From the IMG/VR virus record IMGVR_UViG_3300034522_000096, positions 1-34,075 of that record: a stretch of DNA of 34,075 nucleotides; one strand, written 5' to 3'. The notes below the pieces were generated by a model that saw only the letters and a program-made list of their open reading frames with translations, searched no databases and was not told the DNA's origin. The stretch is from a virus. The stretch's first letter is position 1; every line of letters starts with the position of its first letter. The translations under genes were made by a program, and so were the position numbers. Below, piece after piece: positions 14,249-28,299 of the stretch.

Positions 14249-16624
14249 TCAGGCCACGACGGCCTTGGTGGCGCAGCGCCAATCGGTCACCGCGCCGCCA
14301 TAGATGTGGCGCACCTTGTAGGTCAGCTTGTCTGCTGCGAACATGGAGCCCGAAGTGGGCGAGTCCTGCACAAACAGTTCGGGCTCTTCCTTGCCATCCA
14401 GGAAGCCAACCTCGATGCCAGGGATGTCGGCAGGATCGGCCACCGTGCACCAGTCGTTGGGGTCGGTCCAGTACCACACCGGGATGATCTGCATACTCAA
14501 CTGCTGCAGGAACGTGCGCTCGTTGTTGGTGGCCAGCTTGAACAGATCCACGGCCGCTTCTTGCAGATCCACCGGCACGACCAGGCGCGTTGGCGCAATC
14601 CCGATGCGGTCCCCACTGTTCAGCTCGGTCTGCTTGAGCATGGCCAGGCGGTGGGCGGCCAGTTGGTCCTTGGTCAGAGCGCCCGTGAAGAGGTTGGCAT
14701 GGTCGGCATGGAAGAAAGCCTTGCCGTCATACACCGGGGCATTGGCGCGGAAGAAGTCAAAAACGAACTTAGCCAGCGTGCGCTTGGCTGCGCGCGAGAG
14801 CTTGGTCGGGATGCGGCGAATGGTGCCCACATCGTCGTTCTTGATCATCTCCAGCGTCACATCTTCCGTGCCGCCCTTTTTGCCGGCCTTGTATGTGGCC
14901 TCTTCATCGGTCGGGCTGTTCAATGGCTGGTAGTCCGCGCCTTCGGCAACGGTTGGCAAATCGCCGTAACCACCCCAGCGGGTGCGGTGCTGCACGCGGA
15001 AATCGCTCAGCGGCACCACACTCACCAGTTGACGCCAGCCGTCAAAGTCCACGGCCGCGCGGTATTCGGACAGCATGCGGCGGGCGATACTGTCGCCCAG
15101 CACTTGATCCAGCGAGTCGCTGCCCAGCGACTCGGTCATGCGGGAGCGGTCGCAGTCACGCAGACGGCCGGTCACCAGGCGGTCGCCAGTCATCTCGATG
15201 TAGCACTCCTTGAAGGACTGCACGCGACCGTGGTCCTTGTGCTGCGGGTCCCAAAAGGCGGCCAGCATGTCCTGCATGGTCAGGCTACGGTCTCCCACCA
15301 CGACAGAGCCTGCACCAAAAGGCGGAACGCGCACAGCGCCGCTTTCTGTCATGCGGGCGATGTAGTCCCCCTCAGCCTTGATCAGGTCGCCCACGGCAGC
15401 CTCGGTCAAGCGGTCAGCACCTGCCGCCGCCACCTGGGCCTGCAAGCGTTCTTTGGCAACCTTCGGCAGGTTGGTCGCGGTAATGCGGTCACGGGCTGCG
15501 GCGCGCAACTCGAACACTTGCAAGTCGGCGCGCGTCAGGGGCGTGCTGTCGCCCTGGGCTTCGGTCACGCGCTGGCTGCCAGGCACAGGCACCAAGGTGC
15601 CGCACACGGACTCGTGCATGCGCACCAGGTCGTCGTCGCTGATGGTCTCCACGTTGATCGTGGCATGTTGTGCTGGGTCTTTGGCCTTGATGGCCTCCAG
15701 CATGCGTTGCTTCCACAAAGGCATAGCTTCGGTTCCTTGGGGGGTGGTTGGGTCTGCGGCGGCTTCGGTCAGACGGTCCAGGCCGCCGCCAGCGCCCGGC
15801 TCGACAATCAGGTCCACGGAGTGCACCTTGGTGAACTTGACGGCTTCGCGCAGCGTTTCGCTGCCGGCTTTGCGCTTTTTGGTGCGTGCATCGGCATCGA
15901 TGGACAGGCCCAGCAGCCCCTGCATGCCGCGCCGCACGGACTCGGTCATCTTGGTAACAGCGGCGTCGTTGGGGTCGATGGCTTTGAAGGTGCCAACCAG
16001 TGCTCCGGTGTCGGGCGTCTTGCCCTCGACAAAGCGCACGCTGTAAATGCCGCCGATCAGGTTGCGCACGTCCTTGCCCTTGCCGGCAATGTGCTCGGCA
16101 TCGGACTTGGCGAACACGCGCACGCCTTCGAACATCGGCGCAGCCTCGCGCAGTGCCTGGTCGGGGTAGTAATTGCGGTTGCCACTGCGGCCGGCACGGA
16201 TCAGCGTGACTTCGATAGAGCCGTCCTGGGCTTCTCGGAACGCAGCATCTGCCTGGGCTTCACGAACTACGGTTTTGTCAGCAGGGACAGTGGGCACGTA
16301 TTGCTCCACCACTTCCACAGGTGCTGCCAGCGTGACCTGGTCGCCCGAGGGCGTAGCCGTCACGGTGTAGCCGTACTGGTATTTGCGCCCGCCCATCTCG
16401 ATGATGGCGCGGTCGGCGTAGATCGCCGTCAGCGACACCCATCGGTCGTTGACAGGCTTGGAGGGGTACACCACGGCGCCAATGGCCGCACGCACCATGT
16501 CGATCAGTTGCCGAAAGTCACGTTCAGGCGCGGGGGCTGCCTCGCGCATGGCGGTATCGATGGCACCGACGGTTTGCAGGCCGCCGCAAGCACCCAGCGC
16601 AGCGATGATCTGGGACCAGCTCAT
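14249..16624 (-). CDS. Prohead protease / major capsid protein fusion
   Basis: This 791-aa protein joins a protease, a scaffold-like linker and the capsid subunit in one chain. Residues about 133-285 resemble prohead serine proteases, with candidate catalytic H178 (DAEHIAG) and S241 (LLGLSIDADA). Residues about 290-430 are charged and helical like a scaffold. From about 430 onward the chain resembles Mu/D3112-type capsid proteins (for example WRQLVSVVPLSDF and FFHADHANLF). The motif [LMVF]-x-E-[AS] occurs 13 times in the first 500 residues but almost never later, suggesting self-cleavage sites. In Mu the protease/scaffold (I) and capsid (T) are separate genes. It is the second gene of the second late block. 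Confidence 0.85.
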   Translation of the reverse strand: MSWSQIIAALGACGGLQTVGAIDTAMREAAPAPERDFRQLIDMVRAAIGAVVYPSKPVNDRWVSLTAIYADRAIIEMGGRKYQYGYTVTATPSGDQVTLAAPVEVVEQYVPTVPADKTVVREAQADAAFREAQDGSIEVTLIRAGRSGNRNYYPDQALREAAPMFEGVRVFAKSDAEHIAGKGKDVRNLIGGIYSVRFVEGKTPDTGALVGTFKAIDPNDAAVTKMTESVRRGMQGLLGLSIDADARTKKRKAGSETLREAVKFTKVHSVDLIVEPGAGGGLDRLTEAAADPTTPQGTEAMPLWKQRMLEAIKAKDPAQHATINVETISDDDLVRMHESVCGTLVPVPGSQRVTEAQGDSTPLTRADLQVFELRAAARDRITATNLPKVAKERLQAQVAAAGADRLTEAAVGDLIKAEGDYIARMTESGAVRVPPFGAGSVVVGDRSLTMQDMLAAFWDPQHKDHGRVQSFKECYIEMTGDRLVTGRLRDCDRSRMTESLGSDSLDQVLGDSIARRMLSEYRAAVDFDGWRQLVSVVPLSDFRVQHRTRWGGYGDLPTVAEGADYQPLNSPTDEEATYKAGKKGGTEDVTLEMIKNDDVGTIRRIPTKLSRAAKRTLAKFVFDFFRANAPVYDGKAFFHADHANLFTGALTKDQLAAHRLAMLKQTELNSGDRIGIAPTRLVVPVDLQEAAVDLFKLATNNERTFLQQLSMQIIPVWYWTDPNDWCTVADPADIPGIEVGFLDGKEEPELFVQDSPTSGSMFAADKLTYKVRHIYGGAVTDWRCATKAVVA

Positions 16625-16626
16625 CG

Positions 16627-16872
16627 TTAAGCCTCGGCGTCGGTGAGCTTCTGGCCGTCGCGGGTCACCACGACCACATGGGTGCCGTAGTCGCGGAAGG
16701 CCAAAACCTCGGCCTCTTGCACAGCCACGAGTTTGGGGCGCAGCGCTTTAACGATTTTGCCGTTTGCCTTGGTATCTACCTGCTCGTAGACAGTGCGCTG
16801 CACGCGCTTGGCTGCTTCGGCAGCAGTCAGTTGCTGGGCCTGCTGGGCTTGATTGTCTTCCTGGTCGGGCAT
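16627..16872 (-). CDS. Small hypothetical protein before the capsid fusion
   Basis: This 81-aa protein has a Gln-rich helical N-terminus (DNQAQQAQQLTAAEAAKRV) and a compact beta-like C-terminus (VQEAEVLAFRDYGTHVVVVTRDGQKL). It has no membrane segment. Its stop lies 2 nt from the start of the protease-capsid fusion, so the two are co-translated. It is the first gene of this late block, following a 116-nt gap with a terminator. A head-assembly accessory role is likely by position; no family recognised. Confidence 0.7.
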   Translation of the reverse strand: MPDQEDNQAQQAQQLTAAEAAKRVQRTVYEQVDTKANGKIVKALRPKLVAVQEAEVLAFRDYGTHVVVVTRDGQKLTDAEA

Positions 16873-17431: not shown

Positions 17432-18361
17432 TTATTCTTTGCGACGCCCCGCGCGCTTCGCAGCCTGGTCCAGTGCAGCCTTGCGGCCATCGAGCTGCAA
17501 CTCCTGTTTCGTGAAGGGCTTGGCCCCCGGCGTCATCACCTGCCACGTCTTGAGCCAGGGAAGGGATATGCAGCCGCAGTGGATCACTTGCTCTGGGGGG
17601 GCCTTGGGGTCATGTGGGCACTGCATCAAGTCAATGCCGCCACCGGGGTTGGGCACCTTGAACGGCAGGCCAGCATCGACCACCTGGCCATCCATCAGGT
17701 CGTGATTCCAGCGGCTGTGAATCTTGCCGCTGCGCCGCCACTGCTTGCCCAGGCCTGGCACCAATGGTGCTGACTGCACCAGACGCTCATTGCCGGCCAC
17801 GGCAAATGCACGGCTGACTTCGGTGCGCACAATCGATGTGGCTCGCTTTGGGGAGTCCGCACCCAATATCGACTGCACCTGCTGTATCGCTTCAAATGGG
17901 GTGGTGCCACCAATGGTGACCAGGCCGAGCTGCTGGTTGATCTTGCCAGCGGCCTCTGTCGAGACAGCACGCATACGCTCCACAGCGAAGGTTTGCATGG
18001 CCGTCAGCACACGGGCGTCCAAAGCGCCCAAGCGCAACTCCACACCATGGCCTGCAGCGGCCAAGGGCTTGTCCACGACATCTTCACCCTGCTGCCAGCC
18101 ATCACGCAGTGCCTGCCCCATAGCTGCACCAGCTTGTTGGCCCACGGCAGCCAGCACCGTCTCGACCTGGTCGCGCAGCCGCCCCAATTGCCACTGTTGC
18201 CAGTCTGTCGGCTGGTTCGTGAGCTGCTGCATGATCTGGGCCAGCCCTGCCTGCAGCAGTGCCACAACCCTCTGATCGGCGCTGAGCAATAGACGTGCAC
18301 GGTCTGCCAAGTGCTCTTTTAAAGCGGCCTCGTAGCGACTGCGCTCCTGCGCTGGGGTCAT
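17432..18361 (-). CDS. Head morphogenesis protein (Mu gpF-like)
   Basis: This 309-aa protein has a helical N-terminal two-thirds and the conserved C-terminal signature of phage minor head proteins. That signature includes SIVRTEVSRAFAVAGNERL, KQWRRSGKIHSRWNHDLMDG, FKVPNPGGGIDLMQCPHDPKAPPEQVIHCGC. The family (Phage_Mu_F) acts near the portal early in head assembly. It overlaps the portal gene by ATGA (18358-18361), and the order TerL, portal, gpF is as in Mu. The Lys/Arg-rich end (KRAGRRKE) may bind DNA. It is the last gene of the first late block. Confidence 0.9.
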   Translation of the reverse strand: MTPAQERSRYEAALKEHLADRARLLLSADQRVVALLQAGLAQIMQQLTNQPTDWQQWQLGRLRDQVETVLAAVGQQAGAAMGQALRDGWQQGEDVVDKPLAAAGHGVELRLGALDARVLTAMQTFAVERMRAVSTEAAGKINQQLGLVTIGGTTPFEAIQQVQSILGADSPKRATSIVRTEVSRAFAVAGNERLVQSAPLVPGLGKQWRRSGKIHSRWNHDLMDGQVVDAGLPFKVPNPGGGIDLMQCPHDPKAPPEQVIHCGCISLPWLKTWQVMTPGAKPFTKQELQLDGRKAALDQAAKRAGRRKE

Positions 18362-19839
18362 GGCGCAGCCCGACCTGCCTGCAGCGCATCTCGCAATTCA
18401 GCCGGCAGGTTGAAGGTATCGGCTGCAGCTTTTTTCTTGCTGCGCTCTTCGGCTTCTATCCGAGCAGCTGCCAACTCGGTCTTTGCATCAAAGTCCTGGC
18501 CGAAGCGCTGGGCCACATCCGCCACAATCTTGAGAGCAGTCTCTTCTGTCAGCAGGCCTGCATTGATCATTTGCACGACAGCCGACACCACGGACTGCAT
18601 GGCGCTGGCGAACTTGGTGATGTCGCGGTTGAGCAGCTCAGGGAATACAGCGGTAACTTGCCATTCATCGGAGGACCAAACGGGTGCCTCTCCATTAACA
18701 CGGGCATGGCACAGCAACACATACCGGCCAATCTCCTCCAGCATGATCTTCAAAAACGACTGACGCATGCTGTATGTCTTGAAGGTAGGCTCTCCCATCT
18801 CCGAAGCTGCTGCGCGGTTTACGTCACCGCCCCCACCGTACCAGTGCTCTGGCATGGTGCTACCTCCCAGCACATGGTTGCGCAGCAGGCGCGCACTGGC
18901 ACTGGTATCGGCCGCTTGCAACTGGGGCGTCTTGGCCTCCAGCTTCACGTTGTCGTTGTGCACAAACGTGGAGTTCGGACCAGGTGGCACAAACTCTTTT
19001 TCATACTTTTTCACAGTAGCATCGTCTGCGCCCTTGAGCTCCACGTCCCAGACGAAAGAACGCAAGTAGCCAATACGGTCCAGCTCATTGAACAGAAAGT
19101 CGTCGTAGGCATCCAGCCAGTCCATCTGGCCCAGTAGATCGCTGCGGCCCCGGCTGCCATTGGGAAACTTGTTGAGCTGGTACAGCAGACACTCACCATC
19201 GGTGAATTCCTCAGCTCGAATGCGCACGGTGTGCTGACTGAACAGCTCTGAGTCTTCACCCAGCACGATCACACGGTACTTGAACTGACGGCCCCGGTTG
19301 TCTCGCTTCGTCACCACACCAATCGGCTGCTCGGGGTTGTCCGGGTCGTTGACCACAGTGGCGATTTGGCGCGGGTCCAGATAGCCCAAGCGCACGAAGC
19401 CATCGCCTTCCCGGACGCTGGCGATATAGCATTGCTCTCCCAGCAGGCCCAGGGCGCGGACTCGGGGGGAGAGCTTGAGCGGCCAATTGTTGATAGGGTC
19501 CGACCAGAAAGCATTGAGCAGATTCTGGTGTTTTTCGTCCTTGCACTGCAGCGTCACGCCTTCAGCCAGCAGGTAAGCCAGTGGCAGCTCAACCAGGCGA
19601 TTGGCAATCAGGTTGCTCTGCCACAGGTGTTCAGCCAGCTTTTGCATGCGGTCCTGCGCCATGGGGGCCAGATCACGCTCATTTTGCTGGCCCGATCCTT
19701 CGCTGGTAATGCGACGCCAGCCTTCACCACCGCCCCCCTGGGCGCTGGCCGCTTCACGCACAGGGCTTTGCGTCGCGTTGTCCGTCGCAACCTCAGAACC
19801 CCACCCCACGAAGCCCAGCATACGTTCGATCATTCCCAT
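18358..19839 (-). CDS. Portal protein
   Basis: This 493-aa protein is the phage portal, the dodecameric DNA gate at one head vertex. Recognisable parts are HLWQSNLIANRLVELPLAYLL, YLDPRQIATVVNDPDNPEQP and the long LLYQLNKFPNGSRGRSDLLG. A clip/stem region and a helical C-terminus of the DUF1073-like kind follow. A GTG at 19848 overlaps the upstream stop, but the ATG at 19837-19839 has AGGAG 8 nt upstream, so I chose it. It follows the large terminase and a 59-aa gene and overlaps gpF. Confidence 0.85.
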   Translation of the reverse strand: MGMIERMLGFVGWGSEVATDNATQSPVREAASAQGGGGEGWRRITSEGSGQQNERDLAPMAQDRMQKLAEHLWQSNLIANRLVELPLAYLLAEGVTLQCKDEKHQNLLNAFWSDPINNWPLKLSPRVRALGLLGEQCYIASVREGDGFVRLGYLDPRQIATVVNDPDNPEQPIGVVTKRDNRGRQFKYRVIVLGEDSELFSQHTVRIRAEEFTDGECLLYQLNKFPNGSRGRSDLLGQMDWLDAYDDFLFNELDRIGYLRSFVWDVELKGADDATVKKYEKEFVPPGPNSTFVHNDNVKLEAKTPQLQAADTSASARLLRNHVLGGSTMPEHWYGGGGDVNRAAASEMGEPTFKTYSMRQSFLKIMLEEIGRYVLLCHARVNGEAPVWSSDEWQVTAVFPELLNRDITKFASAMQSVVSAVVQMINAGLLTEETALKIVADVAQRFGQDFDAKTELAAARIEAEERSKKKAAADTFNLPAELRDALQAGRAAP

Positions 19840-19844
19840 GGTGC

Positions 19845-20024
19845 TCACTCCTGTGCTGCCAGCTCGGCACCGACCAAGGCCATGGCCATCCGGCCATGAT
19901 CGTTATGAAGGGTGATGATTTCGCGCAACTTGGCAGCAGCCAGTTCTATGCCCTTGCGGTCGGAATCGGGCAGATCGGCAATCGCGCCCTTGATCAGCAA
20001 AAGGGTGACTTGGTCTTGGTTCAT
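19845..20024 (-). CDS. Small hypothetical protein between terminase and portal
   Basis: This 59-aa ORF starts ATG at 20022-20024 and ends TGA at 19845-19847, just before the portal. It contains MNQDQVTLLLIKGAIADLPD, DRKGIELAAAKLREIITLH and an Ala-rich end (MALVGAELAAQE), giving an amphipathic helical profile. It is in line with the operon, and portal translation is probably coupled to its stop. Similar very short genes occur between terminase and portal in transposable siphophages. No function recognised. Confidence 0.7.
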   Translation of the reverse strand: MNQDQVTLLLIKGAIADLPDSDRKGIELAAAKLREIITLHNDHGRMAMALVGAELAAQE

Positions 20025-25808: not shown

Positions 25809-26125
25809 CTAGTAAGCCACGCCTTAAACGAGGTATTTCCGGGGACTTGACTGTTATAGCCACGGCCGACTCTACGCAAAGCGTATTGCTGGCGCGTGGG
25901 CTCATCAAGGCCCATTACGGTAGCTTGGGGCACTTCGCGCAGGTGTTCAAACTGCCTTATGGCGCAGTTTGTGAAGCCACAAATCCTAAGAAAGAACGGC
26001 TGAGCGCACGACGCGCAGGAAACGTTGCTCTTGTACGGCGAATTCTTGGCCTTCGATCTGAGCCTACGGCACTAGCTACCAGCATTGCGGATGCAATCGC
26101 TAGAAAGCAAGGGGCTCGCACATGA
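25805..26125 (+). CDS. HTH-like early protein before transposase
   Basis: This 106-aa basic protein contains a possible DNA-binding helix pair: GSLGHFAQVFKLPYGAVCEA followed by RLSARRAGNVALVRRILGL. The N-terminus is a short basic segment. It overlaps both the Ner-like gene and the transposase gene by ATGA, so the three are one translational unit. It may be a second regulator or a transposition accessory factor. No family recognised with confidence. Confidence 0.65.
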   Translation: MTSKPRLKRGISGDLTVIATADSTQSVLLARGLIKAHYGSLGHFAQVFKLPYGAVCEATNPKKERLSARRAGNVALVRRILGLRSEPTALATSIADAIARKQGART

Positions 26126-28299
26126 AATGGCTCACCGCACGCGAGATAGCGGGCTTGCCGGGCATGCCATCGTCAGAGCGTCGGACTCGTGACTGGCTGA
26201 ACCGCGCACGAATAGATTCTCGTGCTCGGCAAGGCCGCGAAGGCGGCGGTGGCATGGAGTACGACTGCAGCGCACTGCCCGAAGAAACCCGCGCCGCTAT
26301 TGCCGCACGCCAGATCACCGCTGCAGGCTCTGTCGCCCTGGCATCGAGTGAGGCTGCACCTGTGCGCTCATTCGCACCTGTCATGGCTCAACCAGGCGCA
26401 CTGCAACCGGCAGCGCGTCGCCAGCCAAGCCTGGCAGACAAGGCTGTGGCAGATGCACGGGTGCGCCTGGTCACTATGGTGCAAGAGCTGGTCCCGCTGG
26501 AGGGGGTCAAGCGCGCCTGCGTTCTTCTGGCCGCCAAGCTGGTCACTGGCGAAGCTGGCCAGGAAGCACTCGCCATCGCCCGCACTGCCAACCAGCGCGC
26601 ACGGGGTGACATGGTCAGCGCCCGCACTCTGGAGCGCTGGATGAGCCAGCACCGCGAAAGCGGATGGTGGGGCTTGCTGCCCGCAGAGACCGAGCAACGG
26701 ATCACACACATTGCGGACGACGTGGCAGCCGTGCTGGGCCTGTACCACAGCAAGGATGCGCGTTTTCGCAAGCTCAGCGCTGCAGCCCAAGAGGTCACCC
26801 GCATGCAGGGCCGTGACTATGACAGCTGGACTGCGCTGTACGACCGCGCCCGCCGCGCCTTGGCAAAGGTCGGACGCTCGGCACAAGCCAGCGTTGCCTT
26901 GATCAAGGCCCGCCACTCTGGCGCTCAACGCGACGCCAAGCTGCCATTCAAGCGCCGTGACACGACGATGCTTGCACCCATGGATGTGTGGGTCATTGAT
27001 GGCCACACGTTTAAAGCCAAGGTGCGCCACCCTGACCACGGTGCCCCGTTTGCCCCAGAGCTGACGGTGGTGCTTGATGCTGCGACACGTTTGATCGTCG
27101 GCTGGTCGGTCAACCTCTCGGAGAGCGTGATCGCGGTGGGCGATGCGCTGCGCCACGCAGTGGGCCAGCACGGCATTCCGGCCATTCTTTATAGCGACAA
27201 CGGTTCAGGTGAGACAGCCAAATCGATGGACTGCCCCATTGATGGTTTCTGCGCTCGCCTGGGCATTGACCACCGCCTGGGCCTGCCCGGTAAGCCTCAG
27301 GGTCACGGGATCATTGAGCGCAGCTGGCAAACCCATGCGATTAATGCCGCGCGCAAGTTTGGCAGCTACCAGGGCAAGGATGTGGATGGCGGAGCATTCC
27401 GCAAAGTGGCTGCCGAGCTGGTTAAAGAGCAGCGTGCGATCAAGCGTGCTGAGCAAACCGGCCAGGTCATCAAGTTGTCCACCAAGGCCCCGACTTGGCA
27501 GCAGTTTATCGATGGCATTGAGGTGATGGTGCAGGAATACAACCTGCAACACCGCCATAGAAGTTTGCCCAAGCGCACGGACGGCAAGCGCATGACTCCG
27601 GCCGAGGCCTGGGCGGCCAGCTTCGACGTCAGCCTGCAGCACAAGCCCTCGGCGCTAGAGCTGCGCATGCTGTTCATGCCCAGCGTCATCCGCACGGCAA
27701 AGCGCGGCGAAGTGGTGTTCTTCAACCAGCACTACCAGGCCCCGGATTTGATGCGTCGTGACATCGATGGTCGCGAGGTGAGCGTGCGCTACGACATTCA
27801 CGACCCGAACTTTGTGCTGGTTTACACGCTGTCGGGAGAGTTTGTCTGCGAGGCCAAGTGGAACGCCAACCGCATCGACTTCTTCCCGAAGCCGGTGATT
27901 CAGATGGCGCGCGAGCAGCGCGTGGCCGCTGCCGTCAAACGTCGCGAGCAGCAGATCGAAACAGCGCTGCGCGAGCTGGACACACCTGTGGATGCCGGCG
28001 CAGGCCGGGTGCTGTCCGCCCCTGAAGCAGTTGTAGTGCTGCCCGCGGTGATGGATGTGGCCGCAACCCTTGTGCCTGTGGCTGCAGAGCTTGCGCGCCC
28101 CGCGTTTTTTGACACCCCAAGCGAGCGCTACGAATGGTTGATGCGCAACCGTGAGCAATGGACCGACAGCGACTCGACCTGGCTGCAGACCTATGTGATC
28201 AGCGACAGCTATGTCGATCTGCGCGAGTACTTCGAGAGCCGGGGATTGGGATGGGACGGCTCCGACGCTGATGCCAGCACTTTTAAGAAAGCTCTGTAA
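26122..28299 (+). CDS. Mu-type DDE transposase A
   Basis: This 725-aa protein is a MuA-like transposase, slightly longer than MuA (663). An N-terminal Mu-type HTH is at about residues 1-65 (TAREIAGLPGMPSSERRTRDWL). End-binding subdomains span about 100-280. The catalytic core holds D293 (VIDGH), D359 (YSDNG) and E399 (GHGIIER), the DDE triad that cuts phage ends and joins them to target DNA. A MuA-type C-terminal beta-barrel (about 555-610) and an activating tail follow. The final ~60 residues should contact MuB and ClpX in Mu. It overlaps the previous gene by ATGA. It defines the element as a transposable phage that integrates and replicates by transposition. Confidence 0.96.
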   Translation: MKWLTAREIAGLPGMPSSERRTRDWLNRARIDSRARQGREGGGGMEYDCSALPEETRAAIAARQITAAGSVALASSEAAPVRSFAPVMAQPGALQPAARRQPSLADKAVADARVRLVTMVQELVPLEGVKRACVLLAAKLVTGEAGQEALAIARTANQRARGDMVSARTLERWMSQHRESGWWGLLPAETEQRITHIADDVAAVLGLYHSKDARFRKLSAAAQEVTRMQGRDYDSWTALYDRARRALAKVGRSAQASVALIKARHSGAQRDAKLPFKRRDTTMLAPMDVWVIDGHTFKAKVRHPDHGAPFAPELTVVLDAATRLIVGWSVNLSESVIAVGDALRHAVGQHGIPAILYSDNGSGETAKSMDCPIDGFCARLGIDHRLGLPGKPQGHGIIERSWQTHAINAARKFGSYQGKDVDGGAFRKVAAELVKEQRAIKRAEQTGQVIKLSTKAPTWQQFIDGIEVMVQEYNLQHRHRSLPKRTDGKRMTPAEAWAASFDVSLQHKPSALELRMLFMPSVIRTAKRGEVVFFNQHYQAPDLMRRDIDGREVSVRYDIHDPNFVLVYTLSGEFVCEAKWNANRIDFFPKPVIQMAREQRVAAAVKRREQQIETALRELDTPVDAGAGRVLSAPEAVVVLPAVMDVAATLVPVAAELARPAFFDTPSERYEWLMRNREQWTDSDSTWLQTYVISDSYVDLREYFESRGLGWDGSDADASTFKKAL

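Follow-up and report, generated by a model that had tools for sequence, protein, structure and literature searches.

Among the closest described systems is that of phage T4, whose prohead protease gp21 cuts after ITE and LTE, i.e., with Glu at P1 and a hydrophobic residue at P3 (PMC5694885). gp21 breaks the core down into peptides and trims the capsid protein, and it also degrades itself (PMC9958956); the portal protein gp20 is not processed (PMC5694885). In giant phages, the prohead proteases (SPN3US gp245 and that of phiKZ) also cleave after Glu, process the portal protein, and cut themselves (PMC5694885, PMC10052503); the SPN3US enzyme cuts after A-x-E, and long propeptides are chopped at several sites (PMC10052503). 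Fusions of a prohead or ClpP-like protease to a major capsid protein are covered by the NCBIfam families NF045541 and NF045540. Phages lambda (C/Nu3) and Mu (I/Z) have nested protease-scaffold genes, in which an in-frame internal start gives a protease-free scaffold product. Proteases that cleave after Glu, propeptides cut more than once, portal proteins that are trimmed, and fusions of protease and capsid protein have, then, each been described before. The specificity of prohead proteases is also known to vary; its determinants are hard to study, as is the way in which it could change in an enzyme whose many essential sites are spread over several proteins.

Here, we present an analysis of one gene in a 34,075-base viral record (the window, i.e., the whole stretch of DNA analyzed). 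With a DDE transposase and Mu-type head genes, the window belongs to a Mu-like transposable phage; the gene order is transposase, large terminase, portal, Mu F-like protein, and then the gene of interest, and a profile search also gave a DUF1804 match. Based on sequence comparisons and structure models, this gene very probably encodes a head-assembly polyprotein in which a T4 gp21-type serine protease is preceded by an N-terminal module and followed by a scaffold and the major capsid protein, with a nested start within the gene, and the polyprotein is predicted to digest itself to release the capsid protein at 498/499 and to trim the portal protein. Moreover, we consider it likely that the cleavage code of this head programme has changed, in that the protease of one clade came to cut after Ala/Gly/Ser instead of Glu, with P1 changed accordingly at some ten sites of the polyprotein and at one site in the product of the separate portal gene, coincident with K173L, the loss of residue 268, and a change at S269, and that the nested start serves a protease-free scaffold-capsid product. 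The features are as follows (a slash marks a predicted cut).

14249 to 16624, minus strand: protease-scaffold-major capsid polyprotein gene, 791 amino acids, a single open reading frame; PF25209 at residues 497 to 787, phrog_29592 over nearly the full length
16310 to 16519, minus strand: small N-terminal beta module in the AF2 model, about residues 36 to 105, flanked by sites 28 and 122/131
16232 to 16234, minus strand: site E131/A132, N-terminal protease border
15767 to 16231, minus strand: protease domain, residues 132 to 286, predicted gp21/assemblin fold, candidate catalytic residues H178, S241, and D271
16145 to 16147, minus strand: site E160/A161, within the protease domain
15941 to 15943, minus strand: site E228/S229, within the protease domain
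15764 to 15766, minus strand: site E287/A288, C-terminal protease border
15131 to 15763, minus strand: scaffold region, residues 288 to 498, from motifs and AF2 model, with sites 310, 338, 355, 408, 427, and 498
15734 to 15738, minus strand: Shine-Dalgarno sequence AAGGA ahead of the internal start
15722 to 15724, minus strand: internal in-frame ATG (M301), predicted start of a 491-residue scaffold-capsid product
15131 to 15133, minus strand: site E498/S499, predicted capsid maturation cut
14252 to 15130, minus strand: major capsid domain, residues 499 to 791, HK97 fold, from PF25209 and Foldseek
18358 to 19848, minus strand: portal protein gene (phrog_10963), predicted substrate in trans
19753 to 19755, minus strand: portal site VRE32/A33, the one conserved N-terminal motif
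17432 to 18361: weak match to a Mu F-like domain
26122 to 28299: DDE transposase (phrog_310)

The likeness to T4 gp21/gp22/gp23 (Peptidase_S77; 5jbl) lies in the modelled protease fold, in sites that pair a hydrophobic P3 with Glu at P1, and in the predicted pattern of scaffold, capsid, and self processing. In contrast to T4, however, protease, scaffold, and capsid protein are one polypeptide in the window, and the portal protein is a predicted substrate. With SPN3US gp245 and the phiKZ enzyme, the window shares Glu at P1, multiple cuts, a portal site, and predicted self-cutting, but its motif is L/M/F-x-E rather than A-x-E, and the genes of the giant phages are separate. As in NF045541 and NF045540, a protease is fused to a related capsid domain; these models match the window protein only from residue 429 or 503 onward, with 172 and 148 bits compared with cut-offs of 525 and 475, respectively. 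The four protease-capsid fusions sampled (LPPA33, PBb002, S1, and RcKemmy) have no marked excess of Glu motifs.

The first-pass annotation had read the gene as a protease-capsid fusion with a scaffold part, and the folds bear this out. The C-terminal part is Phage_capsid_4 (PF25209, E 8e-46) and matches HK97-like capsids in Foldseek; an AF2 model of the polyprotein, built with 66 sequences, gives a helical scaffold and an HK97-type capsid. Low-confidence linkers in this model (30 to 34, 111 to 131, 288 to 299, 345 to 361, and 427 to 443) coincide with or adjoin sites 28, 122/131, 287, 355, and 427. The protease domain modelled alone (AF2 pLDDT 90.5) is best matched by T4 gp21 (5jbl_A; Z 10.3 over 134 residues, VIA-align), with herpesvirus proteases ranking next, i.e., a gp21/assemblin fold. 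A Foldseek search of the PDB with the same model gave no significant match and no prohead protease, and a sequence search of the PDB with the protease found no prohead protease. phrog_15531 matches the protease in 67 of 68 members, whereas PF03420 (Peptidase_S77) matches one of the 68 (E 0.025) and not the window protein. S241 and D271 are invariant among homologues and H178 nearly so; these conserved residues may be catalytic. Many of the capsid matches are annotated as ClpP-type protease-capsid fusions; we rejected this assignment for the window protein because its protease fold is gp21-like.

Residues 1 to 500 contain 13 copies of [LMVF]-x-E-[AS], with E/A or E/S junctions at exactly the residues first pointed out (28, 122, 131, 160, 228, 260, 287, 310, 338, 355, 408, 427, and 498), whereas in 2000 composition-preserving shuffles the average is 1.1 copies and the highest count 6; the initial observation is thus confirmed. 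For a stricter pattern, hyd-[RT]-E-[AS], the count in the same residues is 11, compared with a mean of 0.2 and a maximum of 3. In the remaining window proteins tested, the motif count was at or near chance. The annotation had held that the idea would fall if the motifs were not conserved among close homologues. Among 62 non-redundant sequences including the query, in which the homologues are 37 to 80% identical to it, 61 are enriched, with 8 to 18 sites in the N-terminal part compared with ~1 to 2 expected, and the enrichment persists down to 37% identity; the refuting condition is, therefore, not borne out. Across homologues, P3 is mostly L/M/F, Glu is the one residue enriched at P1, and P1' is A/S/C, which supports the T4-type reading given to the motifs at first sight; for the pattern [LMFI]xZ[ASC], the observed/expected ratio in the Glu-rich homologues (E-type, below) is 9.3 for Z = E and at most 1.6 for every other residue. 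The sites at the domain borders (131, 287, and 498) are near-invariant; the motif is present in 59, 61, 54, and 50 of the 62 sequences at sites 131, 287, 160, and 228, respectively. Sites 28, 122, 260, 310, 338, 355, 408, and 427 are less strictly conserved or slightly shifted. The lone later motif, LQEA, was confirmed at 687 to 690 (site 689) and is present in only 21 of 62 homologues, i.e., it is not conserved.

The region is Ala- and Glu-rich, and several of the sites fall within predicted helices, as expected if the motifs were a by-product of a helix-rich scaffold composition or helix caps rather than protease sites. We give this explanation next to no weight, because composition-keeping shuffles yield only 1 to 2 sites, no residue other than Glu reaches a similar enrichment at P1, the sites fall at domain borders, and two genes show a coordinated change of P1 (below); a chance or compositional origin as such is rejected on the basis of the shuffles together with the testing of every residue at P1. 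Rather, the conservation of the sites implies that the predicted protease would cleave C-terminally to Glu.

The portal protein carries the same signal. Its N-terminal site reads hyd-x-E-[ASC] in all 60 of the E-type portals whose N-terminus could be read, and no other neighbouring or virion protein of the window has a site as conserved. In a Neck1-like protein (window 13204 to 13746), a motif column is present in 54 of 117 relatives, and this protein is a possible minor substrate.

The sole exception among the 62 sequences (L110) has a single motif. Further searches revealed 15 proteins that form a clade and have no more than 3 Glu motifs each, compared with at least 7 in 135 others (E-type); per-site counts in this sister clade are for 11 representatives of the 15. 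At the aligned sites, P1 is A/G/S: Ala in 11/11 at 287 and at 473, Ala in 8 and Ser in 2 at 160, and Ala in 10 and Gly in 1 at 498, where Glu is found in 93/93 E-type sequences. Site 228 is mixed (Asp 5, Ala 3, Ser 3). Accordingly, the [LMFI]xZ[ASC] ratio in this clade is 5.1 for Ala and 1.2 for Glu. Every sister-clade portal with a readable N-terminus has hyd-x-A-[AS] (LKA/A in L161; LPA/A in L164; MQA/A in L166 to L168; IKA/S in L170 and L173; LQA/S in L212, L213, and L226). Glu is retained in only 5 of 116 site cells, compared with 120 of 183 cells in other conserved Glu columns (Fisher by column, p = 0.003, the columns being phylogenetically non-independent), and overall Glu content is nearly equal between the two groups (0.068 versus 0.064). 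Because other conserved Glu residues are mostly retained and total Glu is similar, Glu was lost at the sites and not generally.

That Glu is gone from nearly all sites is what one would expect if the sister-clade protease were dead or replaced and its sites had simply decayed. This is very improbable, since H178, S241, and D271 are kept in both clades (11/11 sister-clade representatives), P3 is hydrophobic in 93 of 96 and P1' is A/S/C in 87 of 96 cells over nine sites, P1 converges on A/G/S with the 5.1-fold enrichment of [LMFI]xA[ASC], and the portal site has the same new P1. Rather, the protease specificity and the substrates appear to have switched in concert. A change from Glu to Ala/Gly/Ser at almost all of the sites and at the portal site is hard to explain unless they are substrates of the linked protease; these comparisons, therefore, strongly suggest that the changed sites are real cut sites. 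Together with the conservation of the border sites, they favour the programmed self-digestion proposed at the outset. Of the two capsid release points envisaged then, 498/499 fits, while 427 lies within the scaffold.

A short list of candidate residues accompanies the switch. Residue 173 is Leu in 15/15 sister-clade proteases and K/R in 124/135 others; residue 268 is absent in 15/15 and present in 135/135 others; and S269 is replaced in 10 of 11 representatives. Further protease columns also change on the sister-clade branch, and because the switch was probably one evolutionary event, its link to K173L, the deletion of 268, and the S269 change is unreplicated. K266 was dropped as a single-residue cause because Lys is also found in the sister clade, and K173 alone is insufficient because a few E-type proteins lack it. 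In a protease-only tree, the sister clade is grouped at 100/97 and is nested among E-type proteins if rooted on Amigo and Nonagon, a weak root; a capsid-only tree requires one change, with the sister clade weakly supported (44/74). The protease of Arthrobacter phage Amigo (gp24; L238) is distantly similar to that of the window (34.5% over 83 residues, E 3e-4), and Amigo represents a split-gene version in which the same Glu motif occurs on the protease-scaffold gp24 (10 copies versus 1.7 expected), the capsid protein gp26 (LHES at 35), and the portal protein gp23 (LQES at 30), but the capsid gene is separate, unlike in the window. Because this unfused outgroup is E-type on all three proteins, Glu is probably the ancestral P1 residue.

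Sites 160, 228, and 260 differ from the others in that they sit in folded helices or strands of the AF2 model and are possibly structural. Accordingly, only the border (131, 287, and 498), scaffold, and portal sites might be cut, and the protease would not destroy itself. Consistent with this idea, 228 is often Asp rather than Ala in the sister clade (5/11), and E160 might form a covarying structural pair with K173. However, most homologues retain 160 and 228 together with their complete P3 and P1' context, 160 is A/S in 10/11 sister-clade proteins, and T4 gp21 pentamers degrade one another (PMC9958956). On balance, we regard this restricted set of cuts as possible but doubtful and keep self-destruction in the model.

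Residue 301 is Met in 131 of 135 E-type homologues despite its location in a gappy linker. A Shine-Dalgarno match of at least 5 bases precedes this ATG in 99/134 E-type and 13/14 sister-clade genes, compared with 4% of other in-frame ATGs, and in most relatives the assigned start of the polyprotein has a weaker one. This internal start should, from its sequence, give a protease-free scaffold-capsid product and may be how a 1:1 protease-capsid fusion avoids excess protease. Compared with lambda C/Nu3 and Mu I/Z, the nested product of the window also includes the capsid protein. A small gene upstream (16627 to 16872) stops two bases before the polyprotein ATG (TAACGATG, window 16622 to 16630), and this close spacing suggests translational coupling.

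We propose that the gene start yields a probably minor full-length chain and the start at 301 a more abundant scaffold-capsid chain. The two would co-assemble in the prohead, and the protease would thereby be carried inside. By analogy with T4 (PMC9958956) and SPN3US (PMC10052503), the protease would act after closure of the shell, recognizing [L/M/F]-x-E/[A/S/C], or [L/M/I/F]-x-[A/G/S]/[A/S/C] in the sister clade. According to this model, it would free itself by cuts at 131 and 287, cut the scaffold small at 310, 338, 355, 408, and 427 (in relatives also at 372 and 473), release the capsid subunit at 498/499, and trim the portal protein after residue 32. It may also destroy itself at 160, 228, and 260, the least certain cuts, and the fragments would exit before DNA packaging. 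We infer cleavage itself, the order of cuts, the product ratios, and the protease residues that determine P1.

Our literature searches found neither a described specificity switch of this kind nor this fusion; as far as that literature shows, a gp21-type polyprotein with a nested start and a cleavage code that has changed in concert in two genes are new. Because the aligned sites of two genes have a different P1 residue in each of two related lineages, and the list of candidate protease residues is short, the question of specificity is testable by domain and residue swaps. Moreover, the polyprotein with its nested start is a compact model for how the protease dose, scaffold, and shell are balanced within one gene.

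The N-terminal module ahead of the protease varies among relatives, as if the part cut off were exchangeable cargo: in three of them (L170:2791-4845, L173:2788-4881, and L117:182-2305), a stretch that by eye is ChaB-like replaces the small beta module. The fusion protein of Stenotrophomonas phage S1 (L234:822-2804) has 8 copies of hyd-x-R-[ASC] in its N-terminal part compared with 1.3 expected, perhaps reflecting Arg at P1.
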